DNA of 64,000 bases. Source: Branchiostoma floridae (lineage: Eukaryota > Chordata > Leptocardii > Amphioxiformes > Branchiostomatidae). Under the pieces are notes generated by a model. The model was not told the origin of the DNA. It searched no databases and saw only the letters and a program-made list of their open reading frames with translations. The position numbers were made by a program, and so were the translations under genes. This document shows, one piece after another, positions 5,424 to 63,697 of the stretch; position 1 is the first letter of the stretch; every line of letters begins with the position of its first letter. Where the stretch lies: assembly GCF_000003815.2 (NCBI RefSeq), contig NC_049986.1, positions 15,083,811 to 15,147,810 of the forward strand. The letters are read 5' to 3'.

Positions 5424-8133
5424 TCAGCCACTGGTACCGCAGCGTTTTATACGCTTCTTGCTCTCACAAGTTTCCTGCATGTGCTCATTCCTACAGTCGT
5501 GAGCTATCTCAGCCACGTAGTCATCCAGACCGTCCCAGTTATCTACCGGTCCGGCACACACTGACCTGGGGAAGAGATGTGCATCCGTTCCATTGTATAG
5601 CCAGGCCTCGAACTTGTCCAGCGGAAGTGACGTTACTTTAGAACAGTCGATGTTCCGCCCGTAGAACCCGACTCCGAAGGCACGAAGCCCGCGTCTCTTG
5701 TCCCCAGGGTAGCACAGCGCCTTCCAGTAGTACCCAGGAATGGCCACTCGTCCTTTCATCCACGTGGTTTGTCGGCCCAGCTTTGTGCCCGTGATGACGT
5801 AGAGGGTTTTGCTGTTGGATTCGGCTCCGACAGCGTTCGTGTAGACTTCTTCTGCTTTCCTGCTAACTGCGCATTCGTACGGCTGCCACACGCACTGGTT
5901 AAAGTCCTTCACCTGAATGGATAGAAAGTATGATAAGCATTGTAGTAACCATGGCAACAAAAGTAGAATTGGGTGGGTGCGTGATGCATCTGTTCATCTG
6001 ATTACTTTTAGAGTATTGTTTTGATTTGATCGAAGTGAGGAAAACAGCTGATTAAAATGACAAGCTTAATTCTAAACGAATCGGTTTTAATTTCGCAGTC
6101 TATCTAGTATCGCCGCTCATATCACCAATCTTCATCCTAATTCCTTCTCTCTGGAAGGATCCGAATCCAATTTCCGTCGATTCGATATGACTCGAGAACT
6201 TTGTAATGCAACAGAACTGTATTCTGGATCAGTTCGAGTCTCGGTATTCGGAAAAGAGCTTCTTACCTGCGGAGCTACGTTGATCATACTGAACGTTCCG
6301 TCCTGCACGGCTGCATTTTTGTCGTTGATGCCGTTAGGGTTGACGTGGCCCCGGTTGTAGAAGTCTCCACAGTTATCGAAGTCGCCATCCATTGCTTGAC
6401 AGTCGGGGCAGAAGCTCTGCTTCAGGTCCTCAAAGCTGGGGTTGCGGAGGCTGCAATGCGGGACGTCTGTCGACCGGGAGATGCCCCAACTCTTGGTCTC
6501 AACTTTGCATTTGTCGGAGATTGCATCATGCATTTCCTTTCCACAAAGTCCTGTAAAATACATGACATTGTGATGAAAAGGAAAGTCTAAGTTATATAGG
6601 AAATTGAAACGGAAGGAAACAAGAGTTCGAAAATCTCATTCTTCCATCTCTAGATTTATTGTTTCATCTTGTTCAATCATTGTGCAGATGAAAGAATCTC
6701 TCCGAGATTGGAGATTAAATGAAGTAAGAAAACAGAAACAGAGTAGAACAGATAAAGAAACGCCAACAGCAGCACAGACAAATTTATTCACAAGGGAAGG
6801 CCATGAATGACGATGTCTACAAGTTATGAAACTTACCCAGCTGGACTCTGTCCCACAGGCCTGATGAAGGTCTGTCCAGTTCCGGTAAGTCCGGGTCACG
6901 TGTGATGGCGGACGCCGTGTACTCGGGGATGCGGTAGTGAGCATTGTAGGCAGTGGCGAAAAGAAGCTTGCTGTCACCAGCGTGGGTATGGCAGATCCGC
7001 AAGGTGGCGTCCTTGTCGTTCTTCATATAACCGCTAGATGGCCAGGCATCGCCCACGAAGAAGTGGTCACAGTCGCTTTGCAGGTTGGAATGTCGTTCGA
7101 TGCATTCCACCACAGGAGCGCTATCGTCTACAGAGACATTTTGTGTGTTTGAGTTAGTATCATTGTAAAGAAGGTTTAAATCTAAAGAAACGTAAAACAA
7201 CACCGGCAAAACTTTGACCGTGGCTATCAACAGTGCATCACAAATCACAATACATGTTGAAACTGTTGTTGACTTTCACGTCTCATGAGAAGGAGCGAGA
7301 CTAGACGAGACTAAATTTCTTGCAATTGGTTCACAAAGTAAGATCACAAAATGTATGTCGCAAGTGAAGCGTATCAAGTGAACTTATCAAACTTTACTTA
7401 CTGTGACTCTGACTGCAATAATCCGGCATGGCATCTTCGTCATGTCAAAAAAGAAAAGGGAAAATCGGTAAAATGACTGAAACTGAGAGCTTTCAAGCAA
7501 AAAAACTTAGTGCTTAAACAAGACAGCTCCAACAATCTAGATCTAATGGCTGCTGGATTTTTGTTATTTGATGAACATCGTTGAATTACACATTTTGATG
7601 TATACGGCATAAGGAGGGCATTTCCTTTCACATCGATAGTTTACGAATAAAACTATTAATGAACCAAATGATTGTGTACAGATCTGACATGAAAAAGGCA
7701 TCTGGCCTCTTTCCAATCGAGAACACAGCCCGACAGGAACATGCAAGAGTTGTACGAGAATGTCTTATAACAGAAAGGTTACCAGGTATAAGGTAAAGCC
7801 ATGTTTATGCAATTAGAGTGACATCAGTCTTTGGTAGTGTGTTTCGCTCCTCAAAGTCTACGACAAAGTTTTGTAGGTTTCCTGACAAATGACGTCGCCA
7901 TCCATTTTTCGGAAGTTTCTTCCCAAAATTAACTAAGGTAAATTAGAAAAGGAAGAATTTTCCAAATGTCAGACGTTATCCGGGACATCCGGCCTCCCAC
8001 ACACACACATTTTACCTTCCGTATACGTAACATACGACATCAAGTTGCTAGGTAAGTTGACGTTTCCAAGCAACAAGGCAGCAACTGCAAAACCCACAGC
8101 GAAGGCCCCGAGCAAGCCTCCTGCACCCGCCAT
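5424..8133 (-). CDS. ENDOD1-like DNA/RNA non-specific endonuclease, copy A
   Basis: Five exons with consistent phases: 8016-8133, 7402-7434, 6837-7127, 6267-6550, 5424-5912 (404 residues). Predicted to hydrolyse DNA and RNA with a divalent metal. Residues 1-39 are a hydrophobic signal peptide or anchor (AFAVGFAVAALLLGNV). A Cys-rich N-terminal part contains FATAYNAHYRIPEYTASA, typical of ENDOD1-type proteins. The NUC domain core is YNRGHVNPN, with the candidate catalytic His at about 216; the Asp of the classical DRGH box is Asn here. MINVAPQ and FNQCVWQPYE supply the Asn and Glu residues expected at the metal site. The start was chosen because the ATG begins a hydrophobic leader and the phase-1 donor fits exon 2. 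Exon 2 is only 33 bases. It belongs to a four-member local family and pairs with copy C in exon architecture. It appears intact. Confidence 0.87.
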
Positions 8134-14153: not shown

Positions 14154-17100
14154 CTATGTGCGACTAGTGGTTGGTTTGCCGTCCATTCTTGGCGGGTGGA
14201 CGTACATGCGTCGCCGCAGTTGTCCCTGGTGCTCAGGAAACAGGGTGATGAAGAACTCTGTCCAGCCGCCCTGGCGCACGCGCACTAGCTCGTAGGCATC
14301 GGTGACTTTGGAGGCCTTCTCCAGGGTTTCCGGATTCGCACAGGTCACTGGAGTAAACAGAAAATAACATTCATTAGATGAAGTTTGTCTACAGCAAAGT
14401 GTACGGAAGATAACAGATCAATCAGACCGTTCATCAGAATTTGCAGATTAGCAGCACGTGACTGCAGCTGGGCGCGTCCGCTATTTTGTCCTTAAAATTT
14501 TGACCAAACAATATTGCTGAGAATGGGATGGTCAAAGGGGTCGATTTTTTTTTTGCCTCAGCTCTAAAACCTCTCCGGAAAAGGCATGGTGTTTTGGAGT
14601 AGACGTCATTGCCTAGACACCTTATCATGATAACGCATCACCTTGCGTCACACAAAACTTACCCGTGATGACGTTGGAGCCAATGGGGCCGTCCAGATCC
14701 GCGTAGCGTCGCAGGAACTCGGTCAGCTTGTCCAGTGGGAAGTCTTCAAGTATCATCAGATCCACCTCAGAACCGCACGACAGGCCCAAGTTGATGCGCT
14801 CAATGTCCCAGCATTTCAGCGCTCTGAGCAGGACAAACAATTGACAGAGGACACGTATTGCGTTTCTGAACAAGATGCATTGAAGAAGTAACGCATCATA
14901 AATGATGGAAGGAACACCATACACTAGCTAGCGTGAAATGCAAGAAATTTTGTTTTCCACTTACTTGTAGATGTCACAGCTGTCCGGGTTTGCAGGCAGG
15001 TCCTGGGGTACTGGTGCCGGGCTCAGGTCCGACGCTATCGGCTGGCCGCTCCGCCGCCCGTCTGCCGACGCAGCGCTGTTGAGTCCGTACCCGACGTACG
15101 CCTCGAACGTGCCTATTCCTGGCAGCACCACGAAGCCGAACCGTCTCTCTGGGTTGTCTGGGTCTCCTGGGATGTAATATTCCTTCTCCAATCGTTCAAA
15201 GGTCTCCTTCACTCCAGGTTTTGCATTGTCGAAGGTCTCCCGAAGTATCGTCAAGACGTTTTCAAACATCCAAGTTCCCAGCTCCTTTAGCTCTGCATTT
15301 TCACCGTGGCCGAACTTAGGAAAGGACGTGGCAACTTCTCGAAGATGCTTGAAAGCGGATGCTTTTGCTTCTTTTCTTGCTGATCCTCCTCGTGCATCGA
15401 AGATGTACTCCTTCATGTCGTGGCCCCAGTCGCACTTCAGACAAGTCAGGAGATCCGGAAGTGTTGTCAGCGCGGTGAGCGGGTCGTACACGAGCTTCTT
15501 GATGGCGTAGAGCGAATCGATGGCATTGGCGGCGCCCACAAACATGAAGCCCAGATCATGATACTTCGTACCGCCGTTTGTATGATCCCGACAGGCCTCA
15601 ACACATCCCTTCATCATGACAGACAGGAGGGGGCTTGGGCACATCTTCCATATGTTACCATAACCGCCGACAAGGAAGGATACCAGTAAAGGAATCTGTA
15701 GTTGAAGGTGCTCCACGAAGATTCCTTGGAATTGCTCGAACGTAATGATCTGTGTTGCATTTTTCGAGGGAAAAGACTTTTTGCTACCTCGCAGGAAATG
15801 TGGACCAGCCTGTGAGTAGAGCGTCCCTTCGTTCAGTGCCATTTCAACGGCGTCCAGGAGCGGGAAAGTGCAGAATGCAAACTCAGAGGCACCAACGAAC
15901 ACGGGCTCGAAACAACCGTCACAGGTGTAGTTCCTGGCATCCTCCAGGCTGACGGGAATCCCCCTCCGTCCGGAGTCCAGTAGGGCTGGAATCAGCCTGT
16001 CGTCATGTAGCAGGACCGGGTGAGCCCCTCCACTCAGCAGGGCCTTGGCTGCTTCCTCCAACACCTCTTCGGGAGTGTCTTTGTTAAGTCGTAACGTCAG
16101 GCACGGAGCGTTCAGAGGCAGACGCCGGGCAGCTCGGAGGCACATCAGGGTGACAGGGTTACAGGCAGACGTTGGGACTGTGTCCTCGTTCGGCAGATAG
16201 CCACCGATGGTGAGCTGTTGTCCCCACTGGTTCATACAGCCGCCCTGAGGAAAGTTGCCGCTGCTTGTGTAGGGAACGGCACCCATTCCGGGGAAGATCT
16301 TGTCCTGTGCTGCGTGACGGTTCAAAAGGGTTCTCTCACCGACCTTGATCCAGAAACAGTCGATGATTTCCTGTGCTTCCTCCATGGTAAGGCTATCCTG
16401 ACGGTAAAACGGTCCCAGCAGCTGGTCGAGTCGCCCGATGGAGATTGGCTCACCGACGATGTGCAGGCAGCAATGCATAGTAAAAACAAGCTGTGTGGCC
16501 TCCAGAAACGTCTTAGGCTTGTGGGTTGCAAGCGTGGACATGCGATGACCGATCTGTCGAAGTTTTGTCGCCTGAGCCTTAGTGAACGTTTCGTTGTCGG
16601 CCAGATTGTCGGCAAGCTGCGCGTAGCTTTTTATGTATTCTTGAACACCCATCAGCGACATCTTGATAGAATGATAGAACATAGCACGTTCCTTCTCTTC
16701 TCTTCGGGATAAAACCAATGTTTCCAATTTTGATAATTTGTCATCAATATCATCAATAAGGGCCTGCAGACCTTTATCCAGAATGACCTGATAATCCGGG
16801 ACGACGTGTCCAATAGCTGCAGCCTCCGTCACGCCCATCTGGTAGGCAGGAATCTGCTCCTCATCTGTCAGGTACGGCATCACTCTCTTTCCAAGGCCCA
16901 TAGAGAAGCTTGGCATCACTCCCACGATCAGTTCATCCGGGTGGATACGGTACAGGTCGAACTGGTCGGAGTAGGGAGGTGCCCTGACGATCTGCTTCAA
17001 GGTGTAATATGTAGCGAGGCCTTTCCTTATCGGAATAGCGTTGTCGTACGTGTCAAGGAGGACTTGATCGTCGTTGGTTAGAAACGTTTTAAGTTCGGGA

Positions 17101-18326
17101 ATGTGAGGCTCGTCTTGTTTCTCGAACCAGCTGCGCTGCCAATCGGAGAAAACTAGACCCAGGAGTTTGAGAACACGACAACTGGGGGTGTCCTGTGGGT
17201 CCTTATAGCCGCCTGTAGTCATCCGGTACAGGTACTCTCGGCTGTTGTAGAACATGTAGCCGTTGTCGCTCTTGACATCCCACTGTGGCATGATGTGTGG
17301 GCGCAGTGGGTGATCCGTGACAGGGATAGGCGTCAGGCCGAGCTCTTCTGCGCTTGGTACGTACCAGAAGCCCCCCTCTTCTGCGTCCTTTACAGCAGTC
17401 AGTAGCTTATCGTCTTTTTCAACCATTTGATTCAGAATGTTCAGAAAAACCTGGCAGGTGTTGGCAAAGGATATGTAGAAGAGACCCTCTTCTCGACCCA
17501 CTCCTGTGCTGCTTGATCCATATGGCATCGCCTGTCGGAGAATTCTCGGATGTCTTCTTGACGGGTCAAAGATTTTTGCACATTTGATGTGCCTCCTAGG
17601 GTCGAAGTCGATCAGGGTGTCATCTCTCACAGTTTTGCCGCAGACGTTTTCCAGGAGGACATAATTCGTGTCCAGGACGGTCCAGTTGAACTTGAACTTC
17701 TGTGTCAGCATGTAGGAACCACCTGGGCTGCCCTTGTATCCCTCCTTTGTGAGGATGAACTCTTCGATAGTCTCAACGTCTGTAGGGTTGGCCAACCCAT
17801 CAGCGAAAAGGCCTCCAAATACACGATTGTTGCCGGTCTCCGAGGGTACAACTGAATAGTAAATGTTATCTATCCCCTGCAAGTGATCTTGGACCATTTC
17901 TGCCATGCTTTGGATGCATTCGCTGGAGTTAGACTTCAGAAAGAAGAAGACTTTCTCGCCGGTGTTAACAAACTTGTTAGAGTGCTCTACAAGGTATTTG
18001 TCTTCTCCTCGTTCTTCAAGAGCTATGGTGCCGTTCTGCCACTTCTCCCATAGCTTTGGTTCAAACGCAACAACGCACCAGCTACCGGTCCGCTTTCCTT
18101 CCTTTAACTCTTTGTTCCCATAATCTGAAAGCTTCTTGATCAGGCTCGTGAATTTTTCCTTCGGAGGTGGGGTTTTGTTTTTGAATTTGACTGTTATAAA
18201 GACCCCGTGCTTTGTTTTCCCAGACAACAGACCAGGCTGCACCTTCCCTATCGGCCGTTCTTTTGCAGGCTTAGCCCCGAGCTCTGGCTTAGTCCCGTCT
18301 GTTCGCCTCTTTTTAGCTGGCGGCAT
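14154..18326 (-). CDS. DyP-type heme peroxidase fused to glycyl radical enzyme, paralogue 1
   Basis: Exons 14965-18326, 14663-14823 and 14154-14347 give 1238 residues. Residues ~25-330 read as a B-type DyP peroxidase: NTGEKVFFFLKS, GLFADGLANP (Asp176 in the distal-Asp position), GGSYMLTQKF, RRHIK (His246 as proximal heme ligand), ILRQAMPYG (distal Arg264) and EEGLFYISFANT. Residues ~345-1238 read as a full glycyl radical enzyme: GHVVPDYQVILDKGL, ATQLVFTMHCCLHIVGEP, GRLDQLLGPFY, DGCFEPVF (thiyl Cys805, Glu807), ADGRRSGQPIASDLSP and RVRQGGWTEFF (radical Gly1202). Such enzymes use a glycyl radical, made by a radical-SAM activase, to form a Cys thiyl that attacks substrate. The C-x-E pattern resembles dehydratase/C-N-lyase members more than pyruvate formate-lyase, which has Cys-Cys. 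No signal peptide; PPAKKRR near the start is nuclear-signal-like. A stop lies upstream in frame, fixing the start. Substrate unknown. Confidence 0.9.
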
Positions 18327-38114: not shown

Positions 38115-40627
38115 TTAGCCACTGGTGCCGCAGCGTTCTTCGCGCCACTCGCTCTCACAAGTTTCCTGGATGTGTTCATTCCTACAGTCGTGAGCTATCT
38201 CAGCCACGTAGTCATCCAGACCGTCCCAGTTATCTACCAGTCCGGCACACACTGACCCGGGGAAGAGATGTTCATCCGTTCCATCGTACAGCCAGGCCTC
38301 GAACTCGTCCAGCGGAAGTGACGTCATTTTAGAACAATCGATGTTCGGGCCGTAGAACCCAACTCCGTAGGGACGAAGCCCGGCGTTCTCGTCCCCAGGG
38401 TAGCACAGCGCCTTCCAGAAGTACCCAGGAATGGCCACTCGTCCTTTCATCCACGTGGTTTGTTCGCCCAGCTTTGTGCCCGTGATGACGTAGAGGGTTT
38501 TGCTGTTGGAACCGGCTCTGACCGCGTTCTTGTAGATTTCGTCTGCTTTCCTGCCAACTGCGCATTCGTACGGCTGCCACACGCACTGGTTAAAGTCGTC
38601 GTCCTGTAGTGACGAAAATGAGTGGTTATTATTCTAACTGACAAAAATGTTCAATGAGTGTTGGTGTACGAAAGCGTGAATTTGCAAGAGTTGACTATCT
38701 GCCACTGACCTGCGGAGCTGCGTTGATCATACTGAAGGTTCCGTCCTGCACGTCTGCATCTTTGTTGTTGATGGAGTTCGGGTTGATGTGGCCCCGGTTG
38801 TAGATCTCGCCACAGTTATCGAAGTCACCATCCATTGCCTGACAGTCGGGGCAGAAGCTCTGCTTCAGTTCTTCAAAGCTGGGGTCGCGGAGGCTGCAAT
38901 CCGGGATATCCGACGCTCGGGAGACGCCCCAACTCTTGGTCTCAATTTTGCATTTGTCAAAGATTGTATCATGCATTTCCTTTCCACACAGCCCTGTAAA
39001 ATACATTCCATTATGGTGACAAGGGTAATCTGACTTATATAGCAATCCTAAAATCTCATACCTCCATGAACTGTATTCAGGACCAGTTTGGGTCTCCAAT
39101 TACCGTGAGGAAATGGTAGTCAGAAAAGTGCTTCCTTCTAGATTCATTGTTTCTTGTCTCTTTGATTATACAGGCAAAAAGATATCTCCGAAATTGGAGA
39201 TGAAAATTAAGAAGAAAGGAAAGGAAAAGGATTAAAAAAGGAGGAAGAAAGTAGAATAGATAAAGAATCACCAACACAGACAAATCTATTTAGATGGAAA
39301 GACAATGAATGGCGATGACTTTAGAGTCACATTACAAGTTGTGAAACTTACCCAGCTGGACCCTGTCCCACAGGCTTGATGACGGCCTGTCCTGTTCCGG
39401 TAAGTCCGGGTCCCGTGTGATGGCGGACGCCGTGTACTCAGGGATGCGGTAGTGAGCATTGTAGGCAGTGGCGAAAAGAAGCTTGCTGTCACCAGCGTGG
39501 GTATGGCAGATCCGCAAGGTGGCGTCCTTGTCGTTCTTCATATAACCGCTAGATGGCCAGGCATCGCCCACGAAGAAGTGGTCACAGTCGCTTTGCAGGT
39601 TGGAATGTCGTTCGATGCATTCCGCCACAGGAGCGCTATCGTCTGCAGATACATTTTGAGGTGTTTGAGTTTGAGTACCATTGTTAAGAAGATTTAAAAC
39701 AAAAGAAACGTGGCTATCACAACATTTGTTTACTTTCACCTCTCACGAGAAGGCGCGAGACTATACGAGGCAAAATCATGTGCACAATTGGTACACAAAA
39801 ATGTATATATATCATGTGTCTTGATGGAGCTCACAAAACGTGTGACACAAGGAAATCGACTCAGAAAACTGTCAAAGTTCACTTACTGTGGCTCTGACTG
39901 CAAAAATCCGCTACGTCATCTTGGTCATGTAAAAAAAAAAGAACAAAGAACATCGGTGGTGTTCAAACAAGAAAGCGGAGGGCAAAGTATTTACTTTCAC
40001 ATCAACAGTACTATACAGTTTACGTATAATGCACCTAATCAATGTGGACAGACCTGATCTGAAAACAGGCGTCTGGTCTTTTCCCATTCTCACGCGAGGG
40101 AACAGCCCGACGGGACCATGCGAGAGTTGTAACTCTAAGACCCCGTTTATAATGCAAAAATAAATGCGGATGCATCCGCATGGATTTTTGCATAATGAAT
40201 GGGGCCAACTGTACTCATAACTGATATGTTACCAGGTGTTGTGGCAAAGCTACGGTCAACATTATCATTATCATATGGTAATTTGATCGATGTGTACTAC
40301 CCAACTGCCACCGGTAGATCCGCTTGGGGATTAGGCTATTATGTCGAGTAGCAGCAGAACGTTTACGACAAAAGGTTTAGTTTCCTGACAGTATACAGAG
40401 GCATAAAAGCTTATGTTTGAAATTTCCTTCAAGAACTTATAACATTAACAAAGGTTAACTACAAATGAAGAAGTGTCAGACATTGTGAGACCTTTGAAAC
40501 TCATCTTACCTTTCATAACAAACGACATCAATGGCAAGTTCTCAGGTAAGTTGACGTTTCCAAGCAACCAGGCAGCAACTGCAAAGCCCACAGCGAAGGC
40601 CACGATAAAGACTCTTGCACCTGGCAT
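38115..40627 (-). CDS. ENDOD1-like DNA/RNA non-specific endonuclease, copy C
   Basis: Exons 40510-40627, 39887-39919, 39352-39642, 38710-38993 and 38115-38603 have the same lengths (118, 33, 291, 284, 489) as copy A and give 404 residues. The leader is VAFAVGFAVAAWLLGNV. The 33-base exon reads CSQSH, as in copy A, when taken in phase 1. The N-terminal module contains YNAHYRIPEYTASA. The NUC core YNRGHINPNS has the candidate catalytic His at about 216; MINAAPQ and FNQCVWQPYE complete the site. All Cys of the C-terminal exon are kept (CVW, ECAV, DCSK, HDCRN, ETCES, RCGTSG). The last exon is closest to that of copy D. It appears intact and is expected to enter the secretory pathway. Confidence 0.88.
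40138..40206. repeat. Short hairpin remnant upstream of copy C
   Basis: Outer arms ACCCCGTTTATAATGCAAAAAT and the inverse ATTTTTGCATAATGAATGGGG surround an inner perfect palindrome ATGCGGATGCATCCGCAT. It lies within intron 1 of nuclease copy C (39920-40509). Small MITE-like remnant. Confidence 0.6.
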
Positions 40628-52268: not shown

Positions 52269-54550
52269 ATGGCTGAACTGTACAATCAGGTTGGCTTCGT
52301 GGCATTGGGCTTCATAGCTGCCTTGTTGGTTAGCAACATCCCGCTTCCTGCCACCAGAGAGACAAACGAAGGTAGTGTAGAGAGGAATAATACACTGTCC
52401 TTGGTTCATTTCGACACAGGGTCTTAGGGCATCCACTGATATGTTGTGTAAGGTAACCGATATGACGTCTAAATTAGTAACGTTATAGCATCGCCAGCGA
52501 TATGATCTTAGACGACAGAATGTAAAATCTAAACTACGACCAGTATTCAAAATTCATGACGATTATAACTCATCTTACCTAGTTTACAATATACGCCAAA
52601 AATGTACAATGTGTGTGTGTGTTAATGTGTGTATGTCTCTCTGTATTAAATTACACGTTAATCTTTGTTCTCCTTTCATATGATCAGAATGCTCCAAGGA
52701 TTCACCAATGTCTGGCATGGATGCACAAAAAGAGTAAGTCTAATTTGAAAATAACATTACAGAAAAAGTACAGGTCATGATAACATCTACATCCTTTCAC
52801 GTTTATCGCTTCTTGATGCTAGGAGACAAACAATACGTTTTCGTACCTGTGCTGCTCATCTTGTAATGTGAACTGAATCTGAATCTTTTGTATTGACCCT
52901 GTAGGACTTTGCTCTACTCTGCCCCTTTCTCGGCGGAGGAAAAACAGTCAAAATGCAGCCGCAGTCAAGGTACGCATATTTGCAGATTTTGTACATGGAA
53001 CTGTTACAACGCTAGTCTCGCTTGTCGTTGCACCGTGCGACTAGCCTTTTTGTCCAATCAATGAATCATGCTTTTGGTGTTAGATTTTCAAACGACATTG
53101 TTCGATAATCACTGTGTGAACGTATATGCTTATGATAATTTTCGTGTTGCAGATGACGTGGCTCCTCAACATGAATGTTCCGCACGCTGTTCTCGCCTGA
53201 GCAGCTCCTGTGACAGCTTCTTTGTTGGCAACTCTTGGCCAAAGAGCAGCTACCAATCTTCCGATTCTACCTGTCGGATCTGCCAGACTCTGGCGGGGGG
53301 TAGGAAGTCTGTTTTCGCCACCGCCTTCAACACGCACTACCGCATCCCCGAGTACACGGCGTCCGCCATCACACGGGACCCGGACTTACCGGAACAGGAC
53401 AGGCCGTCATCAAGCCTGTGGGACAGAGTTCAGCTGGGTAATTTTCACAACTAAGTTATCATTATGTGATTTCCTATGTAGACATAGCTGTGTTTGTTTG
53501 TTTGTTTGTTTATTTGTTGTGTTTCATTTTCCTCTTTTTCCTTTGATTTCCTTCAAATTTTCACTTTGAAATCGATTTCCACATCCTTACATTCTTCTCT
53601 TCCTTAATTTGCTTTATTCCTTCTTTCTGTTTTCCTCACGTCTTCTTCACCATGTATTCTACAGGACTGTGCGGAAAGAAAGTCCATGACACCCTCTATG
53701 ACCGCTGTGATAATGTTGAGACCGACAAGTGGGGTGTGACCCGGATGTCGGACATTTGGAAGGCGTCCGGAACTCGCTGTCGTCTCAGCAACCCCAGCTT
53801 TGACGACCTGCAGGAGAGCCACTGTGGCGACTGTCAGGGGCTGGACAGCGACTACTCCGGCTGCGGAACCACCTTCAACCGCGGCCACATCAACCCCAAC
53901 TCCATCAACAACAAAGATGCAGACGTGCAGGACGGAACCTTCAGTATGATCAACGTAGCTCCGCAGGTCAGTGGCAGATAGTCGACTCTCTGATATACAC
54001 TTTCCTACACCAGCGCTCATTAAAGATTTATAATGATAACAACTCATTTTCACCCCTACAGGACGACGACTTTAACCAGTGCGTGTGGCAGCCGTACGAA
54101 TGCGCAGTTGGCAGGAAAGCAGACGAAGTCTACAAGAACGCGGTCAGAGCCGGTTCCAACAGCAAAGCCCTTTACGTCATCACGGGCACAAAGCTGGGCC
54201 AACAAACCACGTGGATGAAAGGACGAGTGGCCATTCCTGGGTACTTCTGGAAGGCGCTGTGCTACCCTGGGGACGAGAGCGCCGGGCTTCGTCCCTTCGG
54301 AGTCGGGTTCTACGGCCCGAACATCGACTGTTCTAAAATGACGTCACTTCCGCTAGAAAAGTTCGAGGCCTGGCTGTACGATGGAGCGGATGAACATCTC
54401 TTCCCCGGGTCAGTGTGTGCCGGACCGGTAGATAACTGGGAGGGTCTGGATGACTACGTGGCTGAGATAGCTCACGACTGTAGGAATGAGCACATCCAGG
54501 ACACTTGTGAGAGCGAGTGGCGTGACAAACGCTGCGGTACCAGTGGTTGA
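52269..54550 (+). CDS. ENDOD1-like DNA/RNA non-specific endonuclease, copy D
   Basis: Six exons: 52269-52371, 52688-52733, 52905-52969, 53153-53437, 53665-53966 and 54062-54550 (429 residues). Leader MAELYNQVGFVALGFIAALL matches copy B, as do the ECSKDSP exon and the KCSRSQ exon. The N-terminal Cys module (CSARCSRLSSSC) is B-like, but its second half (HYRIPEYTASAITRDPDLPE, SSSLWDRVQL) is almost identical to copy C, continuing into the intron. The NUC core FNRGHINPNS has the candidate catalytic His at about 241; MINVAPQ and FNQCVWQPYE follow. All C-terminal Cys are kept. Predicted secreted or endomembrane nuclease needing a divalent metal. It is the only plus-strand member and lies just upstream of DyP-GRE paralogue 2. 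The exon-4 donor is GTAATT, weaker than GTAAGT in A and C. Confidence 0.88.
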
Positions 54551-58005: not shown

Positions 58006-61000
58006 ATGGCGAGCCGGCGGAGAGTAGACCAACAGAAGATGCCGCCTGCAAAAAGGATGCGACACGAGAATGGCAACCTCGCCCAAAACCAAGATAACGG
58101 CACCTCACTAGTAAACGAGTGCGATGCAAAACCAATAGGAAAAGTCCAGCCCGGTTTGTTGGCATCCAAACCGAAGCATGGGATTTTCTTCACCATAAAA
58201 GGAGCCGATCCTTACAAGCAAGAAATTATGACGCTGATCAGAGACCTTCGAGACTACGGAATGACCGCAGGAGAGCGAACGTGGGCGGTAGTGGCCTTCA
58301 ACCCGGACCTCTGGGAAAAGTGGCAAAATAGTGAAATAAATCTGGAGAAGCGTCCAGAAGGGAGCTATCTGCTGCCTGATTCCACCAAATTTGTCAACAC
58401 CGGTGGTGATGTTTTCTTCTTCCTTAAGTCCGACTCCTTGGACCATATCCACAGTCTGGAGAACATGGTTACCACGCGGCTGAACAGCTGTCAGCTGGAC
58501 TTTACCAAAGAACACTCGGAGCCAGGGAACAATCGCGTTATCGGCGGCCTTTTCGCGGATGGACTGGCCAATCCCACAGACGTAGAGAACATCGACGACT
58601 TCGTCATCACGACAGATGTAGACAAAGGCGCTACTGGGGGATCGTACATGCTGACACAGAAGTTCGTCTTCAACTGGACCATTCTGGATGACATGACGCA
58701 AGACCAGCTGGAGAACATGATCGGGAGGACCGTGACAGACGACATCCTGGTCGTTGATGACACACGGCGGCACATCAAGTGTGCACACATCCTGGACGAG
58801 AACGGCAAACATCCCCTTGTCTTCCGTCAGTCCATGCCCTACGGTTCTAATAATACCGGCGTCGGCCGTGAAGAAGGGACCTTTTACATTTCCTGCGCAA
58901 ACACCTGCCAGCGTTTCCTTGACATACTTACGAAACTCATCGACGAAGAAGACAAGCTGATCAGCACTGTACACTCTGAAGAAGGTAGCTTCTGGTACGT
59001 ACCGAGCGCAGAAGAGCTCGGTCTGACGCCCATCCCTGTCCGGGAACAACTCCAACTGATGCCACAGTGGGACGTCAAGAGCGACAACGGTTACATGTTC
59101 TACAACAGCCGAGAGTACCTGTACCGGATGACTACAGGCGGCTATAAAGACCCGAAGGACACGCCCAGTTGTCGTGTTCTCAAACTCCTGGGTCTGGTCT
59201 TGACCGATTGGCAGCGCAGCTGGTTCGAGAAACAAGACGAGCCTGACATTCCCGAACTTAAAACGTTTTTGACCAATGACGATCAAGTCCTCCTAGACAA
59301 GTACGACAACGCTGTCCCGATAAGGAAAGGCCTCGCCACATATTACACCCTGCAGCACATCGTCAGCACCCCCCCCTACTCCCAGCAGTTTGACGTCTAC
59401 CGTATCTACCCGGATGAACTGATCGTGGGAGTGATGCCAAGCTTCTCTTTTGGCCTTGGAAGGAGAGTGATGCCGTACCTGACACGTGAGGAGCAGATTC
59501 CTGCCTACCAGATGGGCGTGACGGAGGCTGCAGCTATTGGACACGTCGTCCCGGATTTTCAGATCATTTTGGACAACGGTCTGCAAGCCCTTATAGAGGA
59601 GATGGCTAGTAAGGCTGAGTCCACCCAACAAGAGGACAATAACAAGCATAAGTTTTTTCTTACGGCTAAGATGTCGCTGATGGGTGTTCAAGCTTACATG
59701 GAAAGCTACGCGGATCTTGCCAAGAAGCTGACCAACAAAACAACGTTCACTGCCGAACAGAAGTCAAATCTTCAACAGATCCATATTCGTATGAAGAAGC
59801 TCGCAAAGAGCAAGCCTGACACGTTTCTGGAGGCCGCACAGCTTGTCTTTACTATGCATTGCTGCCTGCACATCGTCGGTGAGCCAATCTCCATCGGGCG
59901 ACTCGACCAGCTGCTGGGACCATTTTACTCTCAAGAAGGCCTGGCCATGGAAGATGCACAGGAAATCATCGACTGTTTCTGGATCAAGGTCGGCGAGAGA
60001 ACCCTTTTGAATCGCCACGCAGCACAGGATAAGGTTTTTCCCGGAATGGGTGCTGTTCCCTATAGAAGCGACGGCAACTTTCCTCAGGGCGGCTGTATGA
60101 ACCAGTGGGGACAACAGCTCACCATCGGTGGCTATCTACCGAACGACGACCAAGTCCCAAAGTCTGCCTGTAACGACGTCACCCTGATGTGTCTCCGAGC
60201 CTCCCGGCGTCTGCCTCTGAACGCCCCGTGCCTGACGTTACGGCTTCACGAAGGTATCTCCCAAGAGGTGTTGGAGGAGACAGCCAAGGCACTGCTGAGT
60301 GGAGGAGCTCACCCGGTCCTACTGCATGACGACAGGCTGATTCCAGCCCTGCTGGACTCCGGACGGAGGGGGATTCCCGTCCGCCTGGAAGATGCCAGGA
60401 ACTACGCCTGTGATGGTTGTTTCGAGCCCGTGTTCGTTGGTGCCTCTGAGTTTGCGTTCTGCACTTTCTTCCTCCTCGAAGCCGTTGAAATGACACTGAA
60501 CGAAGGGACGCTCTATTCACAGGCTGGTCCACATTTCCTGCGAGGTACCAAAAAGTCCTTTCCCTCGCCAAATGCTAGTAGGATCAAAGATTTTAAAGAA
60601 TTCCAAGAGATCTTCCTCAAGCACCTTCGTCTTCAAATTCCTTTGCTGGTATCCTTCCTCGTCAGCGGCTATGGTAACATATGGAAGATGTGTCCCAGCC
60701 CTCTCCTATCTGTCATGATGAAGGATTGTATTGAGGCCGGTAGGGATCATTCAAACGGCGGTACGAAGTACCACGATCTGGGCTTCATGTTTGTGGGCGC
60801 CGCCGACGCCATCGATTCGCTCTACGCCATCAAGAAGCTCGTGTACGACCCGCTCACCGCGCTGACAACACTTCCGGATCTCCTCACGTGTCTGAAGTGC
60901 GACTGGGGCCACGACATGAAGGAGTATCTCATCGACGTTCGAGCGGGACCAGGAAGGGCCGAGGCACAAGCAACTTTCTTCAGGCATCTTCGAGACGTCG

Positions 61001-62145
61001 CCGTGTCCTTCCCAAAGTTCGGCCACGGTGAAAATGAAGAATTAAAGGAGCTGGCAACTTGGATGTTTGAAAACGTCTTGACGATACTTCGGGAGACCTT
61101 CGACGACGCTCCAACTGGAGTGAAAGAGATCTTTGAACGACTGGAGAAGGATTATTCTCTACCAGGCAGACCTTTCGGCTTCGTGGCGCTGCCAGGAATA
61201 GGCACGTTTGAGGCGTATGTCGGATACGGACTCAACAGCGCTGCGTCAGCAGACGGGCGGCGGAGCGGCCAGCCGATAGCGTCGGACCTGAGCCCGGCAC
61301 CTGTACCCCAGGACCTGCCTGCAAACCCGGACAGCTGTGACATCTACAAGTAAGTGGAGAACGAAAGCATGCTTAAATTCATCTTCATAGATAGTAGTTA
61401 ACACCCTCTGATACAGCTACAGAATGCTCTTCCTGTATGTATTTCTGTGCGTTCGTTCATGAAGGCATCTTGCTCAGACACTTATGTCCCCTATATCAAT
61501 TGTTTGTCCTGTTCAGAGCGCTGAAATGCTGGGACCTTGAGGTCATCAACTCCGGCCTGTCATGCGGCTCTGAGGTGGATCTGATGATACGTGAAGACTT
61601 CCCATTGGACAAGCTGACAGAGTTCCTTCGGCGCTACGCGGACCTGGATGGCCCCATTGGCTCGAACGTCATCACGGGTAAGCTTCGTCACCTTCATGTT
61701 CAGGTATCTTTGCAATGAATGACGTCTAATCCAAAGCATGAGAAATTTGTTTCCTGGAGAGGTTATAGAGCTGATTGAGCCAAAAGATATTGAACCCCGG
61801 AGCCCCAACCATTCTCGGCAATATTGTTTGGTCAAAACTTGAAGGACGTAATGGAGGATGCGCCCAGGTGCAGTCACGTGCTGCTTATCTGCCAATGCTG
61901 GTGAACGGTCTGATTGGTCTGTCACGTTGGCTACACTTTGCTGTAGATAAGCTTCATCTCATGTATGTTATTTCCTGTTTACTCCAGTGACCTGTGCGAA
62001 TCCGGAAACCCTGGAGAAGGCCTCCAAGGTCACCGATGCCTACGAGCTAGTGCGCGTGCGCCAGGGCGGCTGGACAGAGTTCTTCATCACCCTGTTTCCT
62101 GTGCACCAGGGACAACTGCGGCGACGCATGTACGTCCACCCGTAA
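58006..62145 (+). CDS. DyP-type heme peroxidase fused to glycyl radical enzyme, paralogue 2
   Basis: Exons 58006-61349, 61517-61677 and 61988-62145 give 1220 residues, with intron positions and phases identical to paralogue 1. The DyP part (residues ~40-340) shows TGGDVFFFLKSDSLDHI, GLFADGLANP (Asp185), GGSYMLTQKF, MIGRTVTDD, TRRHIK (proximal His256), FRQSMPYG (distal Arg274) and EEGTFYISCANT. The GRE part shows GHVVPDFQIILDNGL, GRLDQLLGPFY, GGCMNQWGQQLTIGGY, DGCFEPVF (Cys805, Glu807), ADGRRSGQPIASDLSP and RVRQGGWTEFF (radical Gly1196). An ATG at 58039 aligns with the start of paralogue 1 (MPPAK), so the first 11 codons may be untranslated or an extension. PPAKRMR near the start is nuclear-signal-like, and no signal peptide is visible. 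The protein stops after MYVHP, shorter than paralogue 1. Substrate and partners are unknown; a radical-SAM activase would be needed and is not in the window. Confidence 0.9.
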
Positions 62146-63697
62146 AGACGTCAAACCGTGACGCATGGACGTCAGGTCGTGACCCATGAACTTTTCCCAA
62201 TTGTAAGTGACGCAGGGACGTCCACGTGCATCCTCGATGCATCAGTGTCGCGACGCATGGATCATGGACGTTCACCCATGACTCATGAATGTAAAACCGT
62301 CACGTTAATTTGCCCCTGTTTGATTTTGATTGAGCTTCCTTTACTTTATACACCTAGCTAACTAGCACAATCATCAATACCATTATTTTGCCCTGAGTGG
62401 ACCATTTAGGGACATGAGCTGAAGTATACGAAATGGGAAACTGATAGATTAAGGTACCAGGTGATAGTTATTGTGGCCATAGTGTGGACAGCAACTTCGA
62501 CTACCGGCAGGACTGCAGCTTGCAATGTGGACTAAATACATTGATATTCATTTACTTCATTTAATTCCATACACAAGACACGCAGTAATGCATGGAGGAT
62601 CAAGATTACAATAGTAGTTGATGTATAAGATAAGATACCAGGATATAATACTAGGGTGAGACTTGAATTTTTCATGGTGTCAAAGGTTAATCAGAATTTC
62701 AAGATGTCGGTGAATTTATTATTTTTATTTCTATTTTCAGAATCCATTATACATTCACATTATCTAGGTGTCAAGTGAATGGTCATCAGAATAGCTCAGA
62801 AAGAGTAGTTTAAGTCCAGACTTGAACTAAGGGGACATAGGCAAGGTTTAAACTGCAATGAAAGAAGTTGTGGGGATATATATTCGTGTGGTGTATTAAA
62901 ACAACAAAAACGTCAGTTCTGCATTTGTGTCAATGTTCGTGCCCGATGTTATGTCGTTCATGGCAGAGAAAACAATACAAATTCTTGAAAATGCATGTAC
63001 ATACAAAAAGGACCACTAGAGACCTTATGTGAATGTTATCGTCTGATGATTCACATGAAAGTGCCATCTAATTCACTATTAATTAACTGCAACGTTTTTA
63101 TCAGTTTAAGGTCATCCTCTTAAAATGTATACAACACAAGAAGTGAAATCTATGACTGAAGCCGCCACTACCAGTAGATCAATTATGATACGTGAAACCA
63201 AGGACTTGGTGAAACACGGTGTAACAGCGAGTGCTCATATGTGTACATAGAAATATCAAACAACTGATTGAGCTAACGTAACACATATAGCTTGTCACGA
63301 TAGTTAAATTGTGAAACTCTTCAACCATTGCAATGAAAAAAACTCACTAATGATCAAACCTATTAATTAAAGAGAGTTTGCTTTTACATTCCATATTCTG
63401 GTCACGCTAATCCATTCATTTACTTTATTGATATCAGTGAAATAGGTGTTTCATTCGCGAAATAGAGCCTAAAATATTCACAATTTTAGCAATGCCAATT
63501 GTAGGGTTATAAACGTAGGAGATTTAACCTAATAAATGCTACCTGACCCTGTAACCTAGTTGGTGCCAAAATGCTGCTTCAGTAGGGAGGAAGGTTAAGG
63601 TATACGGGAAAACAAAACATTAAAAAAGCTGCTCAAACTCGTATCATTAGATTATCCTCCCTGCAAGCTTTATCCTTACTGCCCTCACACACGCGGA
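62146..63697. other. Convergent 3' flanks, no gene recognised
   Basis: 3' flank of DyP-GRE paralogue 2 and of the minus-strand gene at 63698. Directly after the stop, 62150-62300 repeats short phrases (GTGACGCATGGACGT, GACGCAGGGACGT, CGACGCATGGATCATGGACG) irregularly. The remainder is AT-rich with nothing recognisable. Confidence 0.45.

Follow-up and report, generated by a model that had tools for sequence, protein, structure and literature searches.

We analyzed a 64,000-nucleotide stretch of the Branchiostoma floridae genome (assembly GCF_000003815.2, contig NC_049986.1, positions 15,083,811 to 15,147,810; hereafter the window), which carries a gene that joins a dye-decolorizing peroxidase (DyP) to a homolog of the glycyl radical enzymes (GREs). 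In this gene, copy A, an open frame of 1121 codons runs stop-free on the reverse strand from 18326 to 14961, straight from the DyP into the GRE, as a preliminary description of the same DNA had claimed. Copy A consists of 3 exons and 2 GT-AG introns and encodes 1238 amino acids (aa), with a stop codon that ends at 14154. A second intact paralog that the preliminary description missed, copy B, lies in the same window at 58006-62145 on the forward strand, and copy C (L004; 1214 aa, intact) lies on another large contig of the same animal genome. The same three-exon form, each time with two GT-AG introns, is common to copies A, B, and C. The features of the two copies in the window, with the evidence for each, are as follows.

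14965 to 18326, reverse strand: copy A exon 1, for residues 1-1120 and 2 further bases; it covers the N-terminal tail, the DyP domain, and the greater part of the GRE barrel (open frame, splicing model, Pfam/NCBIfam)
14663 to 14823, reverse strand: copy A exon 2, 161 bases (GT-AG borders; equal exon length in copies B and C)
14154 to 14347, reverse strand: copy A exon 3, carrying the stop codon and the loop of the radical-type Gly (splicing model)
17340 to 18239, reverse strand: DyP domain of copy A, residues 30-329 (range of a below-cut-off TIGR01413 match, PF20628 at 174-327, fold match)
17799 to 17801, reverse strand: codon of Asp176 (in FADG), the distal heme acid, which aligns with DypB Asp153 (alignment)
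17589 to 17591, reverse strand: codon of His246 (in RRHIK), the putative proximal heme ligand (alignment)
17535 to 17537, reverse strand: codon of Arg264 (in LRQAMPYG), the distal Arg, which aligns with DypB Arg244 (alignment)
14154 to 17294, reverse strand: GRE part of copy A, similar to pyruvate formate-lyase (PFL), residues 345-1238, with two introns inside (PF02901 at 495-1029, aligned relatives)
15912 to 15914, reverse strand: codon of Cys805, the thiyl-type Cys in DGCFEP (alignment, 29/29 family members)
14265 to 14267, reverse strand: codon of Gly1202, the radical-type Gly in RQGGW (alignment, 29/29)
58006 to 61349, forward strand: copy B exon 1 (open frame, Pfam, splicing model)
61517 to 61677, forward strand: copy B exon 2 (splicing model)
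61988 to 62145, forward strand: copy B exon 3 with the stop codon, completing a product of 1220 aa (splicing model)

The DyP-GRE fusion gene in this animal genome is real. PF02901 and PF20628 each match only the three copy sites in the 513-Mb genome (counts that are lower bounds), and the pairwise ratios of nonsynonymous to synonymous substitution rates (dN/dS) are 0.33 for A-B, 0.22 for A-C, and 0.15 for B-C. A chance open frame is ruled out by the three intact three-exon copies and by dN/dS of 0.15-0.33. Relatives were sought in prokaryote collections alone, and those found are bacterial, as would be expected if the gene were a contaminant or an assembly artefact. We nevertheless regard such an origin as extremely improbable, given three copies on two contigs with two GT-AG introns each, dN/dS below 0.34, and a 513-Mb host assembly with 37 matches to the Wnt domain, which is animal-specific and gave 0 matches in 14 prokaryote controls.

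Copies A and B lie in inverted orientation, and their identity at third codon positions (60-codon blocks) is 57-93% in the GRE part and 34-55% in the DyP part, changing abruptly at about residue 340 (window 14154-17300 and 59030-62145). This pattern looks like gene conversion between the inverted paralogs, restricted to the GRE half. Just 3' of the stop codons of copy C (8 copies; L004 2266-2434) and copy B (2 copies; window 62147-62188) stand tandem repeats with a period of 21, and by eye the repeat unit is similar to the last codons of the gene.

Copy A encodes a B-type DyP domain fused to a PFL-fold GRE homolog. The residues on which the preliminary description relied (Asp176, His246, Arg264, Cys805, and Gly1202) lie where it placed them, and its assignment of the GRE half is borne out by PF02901, which matches residues 495-1029 over cut-off at 6e-101. 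For the DyP half the profile evidence is divided: PF20628 is over cut-off in the 1238-residue product (1.7e-16, residues 174-327), but TIGR01413, which covers residues 30-329 at 2.5e-24, stays below its cut-off with 86.2 bits versus 100.5, and on copy B reaches 100.2 bits, again below 100.5. Structure prediction supports both domains. Residues 20-345 are predicted to adopt the DyP fold (mean pLDDT 75.7), and all 50 PDB matches listed are DyPs if 2iiz (titled TyrA) is counted among them on the grounds that its sequence is identical to that of the DyP-titled 2hag. A single model shows the DyP and GRE folds together, with a pTM of 0.85.

The preliminary description knew of no described protein with this pairing, and in this it was wrong. 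Passages of Zamocky et al. (2016, PMC5041501) describe DyP-PFL fusions in the fungus Chaetomium, mention other prokaryotes and eukaryotes, and term the significance of the fusion elusive; they report a transcript that is 3-fold up with peroxide and 18.5-fold up with peroxyacetic acid. The legend of their Figure 5, a DyP tree, lists Deuterostomia and Mollusca, as DyPs, and DyP-B genes in Schistosoma appear in a passage of PMC4420034. As described there, the Chaetomium protein resembles copy A in having an N-terminal B-type DyP and a C-terminal PFL-like domain; it differs in being fungal and in having a putative activase named for it, whereas here the gene is animal, is present in three copies, and belongs to a group in which comparison points away from an activase. 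Among open-licence papers, a search turned up none that treats a fused animal DyP or the missing activase. The domain pair and animal DyPs are already in print, and the comparative evidence on activases and DyP linkage is the new part.

A plasmid search found one fused Asticcacaulis protein and one Hymenobacter operon, and a scan of prokaryote contigs with two peptide patterns, one of them containing Trp701, returned 41 loci, 25 of which (L010-L034) show 35-45% identity and 16 show 29% or less. A DyP lies in frame upstream of the GRE at 18 of the 25 clade loci, which, with the Asticcacaulis protein, supply the other proteins with this domain pair that the preliminary description had proposed to look for. 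At 6 of the 7 unfused clade loci a separate DyP gene stands directly behind the GRE; the seventh (L031) is cut by a contig end. PF20628 and PF04261 match all 6 separate DyPs. In PDB searches, the fused DyPs are nearest to B-type DyPs and the one separate DyP that was searched, from L024, comes closest to structures of the EfeB type. Two DyP models, both made from DyPs of this clade, matched none of the 16 canonical loci, several of which are short, but neither model matches the other subclass, so that the pair does not amount to a test for DyPs in general. In a tree, 29 family members are split by one branch from 8 canonical rows (support 100/100), and the fused (97/99) and unfused (86/97) members form separate groups, with the animal copies among the fused. 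The fusion is part of a distinct GRE clade, which has DyPs of two kinds linked to it at 24 of 25 prokaryote loci. The fusion gene is lost now and then, as seen from several broken copies with split frames or a missing part (G081, G106, and G107; loci L051, L054, and L055); in L034 the GRE is split over two frames.

We aligned the DyPs of 21 fusions (17 loci, the Asticcacaulis protein, and the three animal copies). All 21 retain the proximal His and 16 of them the distal Arg, and the position of the distal acid is occupied by Asp in 3, Glu in 13, and His in 5. In the separate DyPs of the unfused loci, the acid, His, and Arg are all kept in 6/6 aligned. Fused DyPs share their fold and proximal His with B-type DyPs such as YfeX, DypB, and DtpB, and the animal copies share the distal Asp and Arg as well; differences are the fusion itself, the Glu or His that the 18 bacterial fusions aligned carry in place of the distal Asp, and the position of DypB Asn246, which is Ala or Ser in copies A and B.

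According to PMC11528403, GREs have the C-terminal fingerprint RVxG[FWY], and their glycyl radical, which a dedicated radical S-adenosylmethionine (radical-SAM) activase installs, is stable when conditions are strictly anoxic. In the clade, Glu807 stands two residues past Cys805 and DGC[FY]E is found in 29/29 members, as is a Gly loop that reads R-[MQ]-G-G-W, in which the Gly and the aromatic residue are kept and the Val is not. The radical-type Gly of the preliminary description therefore stands as to residue and position, but the clade's loop departs from the strict fingerprint. Five tryptophans (Trp396, Trp400, Trp701, Trp967, and Trp1203 in copy A numbers) are Trp in 29/29 members and in 0/13 canonical rows. 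An extra check drew on 8 more genomes, which a Pfam profile alone had brought up. Of these, 5 have an intact gene, in each case a fusion that encodes the Cys, the Glu, the Gly, and the full set of five Trp, two of them with the loop R-T-G-G-W, and the other 3 (G081, G106, and G107) have broken genes; the five clade Trp occur in 0/6 canonical proteins of the same order.

The nearest solved structures of the GRE half are diol and glycerol dehydratases and choline lyase. With glycerol/1,2-propanediol dehydratase and choline lyase (1r8w, 5i2g, and 5fau) the clade shares, at ~20% identity, the PFL-like barrel, the Cys with a Glu two residues on, and the C-terminal Gly loop. It differs from them in its fusion or linkage to a DyP, in having no partner activase in clade genomes, and in its GGW loop, DGC[FY]E motif, invariant Trps, and altered His and Glu in the pocket. 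Canonical pocket-helix residues are replaced (His618 and Glu626 in 29/29 members, His622 in 28/29), and, given these changes, the substrate is probably unlike those of the known dehydratases. The same replacements, the clade-specific Trps, and the departure of the loop (R-M/Q-G-G-W or R-T-G-G-W) from RVxG[FWY] would also fit an enzyme with no glycyl radical, in which Cys805 (or a Trp) is oxidized by the heme without an intermediate and Gly1202 has a structural role only. Against this, Gly1202 is invariant in 29/29 members and lies in a Gly loop that is otherwise conserved, and we hold this alternative to be distinctly unlikely.

To survey GRE activases, whose genes typically lie near those of canonical GREs, we used the profiles TIGR02494 (cut-off 174.35 bits) and TIGR02493 (cut-off 231.75 bits). 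The first TIGR02494 scan, which 36 of the 41 loci entered, gave matches over cut-off in 4/25 clade genomes versus 11/11 canonical genomes. Exactly those 4 clade genomes also hold full-span canonical GREs (PF02901 >500 bits; G002 twice, G003, G011, and G012), and in each the activase is on the same contig as the canonical GRE, within 4 kb; none of the 21 clade-only genomes of this set has TIGR02494 over cut-off. In one myxobacterial order, 23 of 145 genomes gave a PFL-like match, and by profile range these were classed as 11 of this clade (3 of them in the first set), 1 fragment (G104), and 11 canonical. TIGR02494 is over cut-off in 0/12 clade or fragment genomes versus 10/11 canonical ones, and in the single canonical miss (G123) the GRE sits at a contig end. 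TIGR02493, searched in 33 genomes, is over cut-off in G011 and G012 only. Without double counting, an activase over cut-off is present in 0/29 clade-only genomes versus 25/26 with a canonical GRE, and in 0/25 clade-only genomes once those with broken genes (G025, G081, G106, and G107) are left out. The canonical activase is thus not part of the clade's genomic company unless a canonical GRE is present.

A GRE found without an activase in many lineages usually held to be aerobic might be catalytically retired, serving as a binding or scaffold domain in what would then be a peroxidase joined to a partner that binds substrate. One would expect a retired site to drift, yet Cys, Glu, and Gly are invariant in 29/29 members over several phyla, and we regard retirement as improbable. 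We suggest instead, with a confidence that falls barely short of even, that the DyP domain may be the radical generator for the GRE half. This proposal draws on sequence comparison: the activase is gone, yet a radical maker is needed; Cys, Glu, and Gly are invariant; and the extra Trps could carry a hole. In this scheme, peroxide would convert the DyP heme to a ferryl state, the oxidizing equivalent would reach the GRE half by way of the invariant Trps, and a radical on Gly1202 and/or Cys805 would result, which, as in other GREs, would then react with a bound small molecule. The fusion would thus belong to a normally anaerobic enzyme class and yet be started by an oxidant. More tentatively, a peroxidase with peroxide, and not a radical-SAM activase, may start this GRE class in many oxygen-living bacteria, with three copies kept by an animal.

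The preliminary description had offered two roles for the heme domain. Its replacement of the activase gains support from the counts of 0/29 versus 25/26 and because two DyP subclasses accompany one GRE clade; protection of the radical explains less, since the radical would then be without a maker.

Several observations weigh against a DyP-made radical. On the side of the peroxidase, the heme-pocket loops of the DyP model have pLDDT below 50, and the distal Arg and acid are both absent in 5/21 fused DyPs (L010-L013 and L030), two of which come from metagenome-assembled genomes (MAGs) of likely anaerobes, named Scalindua and Desulfobacca; the clade is therefore not purely aerobic. As to the tryptophans, the canonical rows have gaps at Trp396 and Trp400, Trp1203 is shared by the GRE 2f3o, and 4/25 loci (L022, L024, L026, and L032) match only the Trp701 pattern, so that Trp701 was partly selected for. 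As to the activase, the Fisher p of 8e-15 for 0/29 versus 25/26 is made too small by the relatedness of the genomes, and of the 21 clade-only genomes in the first set, at least 7 are MAGs, so that absence may in part be missing data. In Chromobacterium (L021, G012:C157), a canonical GRE and its activase lie ~6-9 kb from the fusion, the only such closeness among the 4 mixed genomes, two others of which have the genes on different contigs. In the animal genome, searched exon by exon, TIGR02494 and TIGR02493 gave no match at E 1, but this is a weak negative, since PF04055 itself matches in only 3 exons there.

Weak matches below cut-off also weigh against a DyP-made radical, and they bear on a further alternative, in which an unrecognized or distant radical-SAM protein activates the GRE in trans and the DyP only removes peroxide, shielding the radical. 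TIGR02494 gives such matches in 15/21 clade-only genomes, at 42.9 bits or less, and also in G083 and G106, and TIGR02493 gives them in 7/29 at 61-80 bits; moreover, DyPs are peroxidases, and a putative PFL activase is named for Chaetomium in PMC5041501, which likewise tells against the DyP as radical maker. On the other hand, 29/29 clade-only genomes are without an activase profile over cut-off, in the 4 genomes that do have an activase a canonical GRE lies nearby, and mere protection would not call for the fusion or adjacency seen at 24/25 loci. We judge trans activation to be unlikely, if a serious contender.

If the DyP does generate the radical, the fusion would stand to canonical GREs as class I stands to class III ribonucleotide reductase. 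Like the class I enzyme, it would send an oxidant-made radical afar to a catalytic Cys in a barrel, but the radical maker would differ in cofactor and fold. Such a mechanism would account for GREs at work in aerobes and animals, and would point to a way of making radical biocatalysts that tolerate oxygen. With a clade that has a heme peroxidase and is without an activase, a second, oxidant-driven route for charging GREs becomes directly testable.

The bacterial loci have further features in their genes and neighborhoods. Actinophytocola fusions (L016 and L020) have an N-terminal extension of ~270 residues, which in L016 is without a Pfam match. On the Hymenobacter plasmid (L006 10028-14212), the GRE and DyP genes are each split over two frames, through either decay or sequencing error. 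A cluster of PLD-like neighbors occurs in 8 loci, both fused (L011, L012, and L030) and unfused (L006, L024, L026, L027, and L028), and a HAD/VOC cluster, partly spurious through single linkage, occurs in 11; PLD-like and HAD/VOC-like genes lie at L011 12820-15607, L030 12606-16221, and L024 12479-16331. Their presence beside fused and unfused members alike suggests a conserved pathway or system. An anti-phage role was considered in a PADLOC scan of 7 proteins: the fusion exon, a bacterial fusion, an unfused GRE, its DyP, and a HAD-like neighbor had no match, and two PLD-like neighbors had weak matches of the DrmC/ZacB/PbeA/DpdK type.

Elsewhere in the window are three open frames that are alike and resemble a non-specific endonuclease; PF01223 does not match the third (54083-54550, forward strand), matches the second below cut-off (38115-38582, reverse strand), and matches the first just over cut-off (5424-5960, reverse strand).

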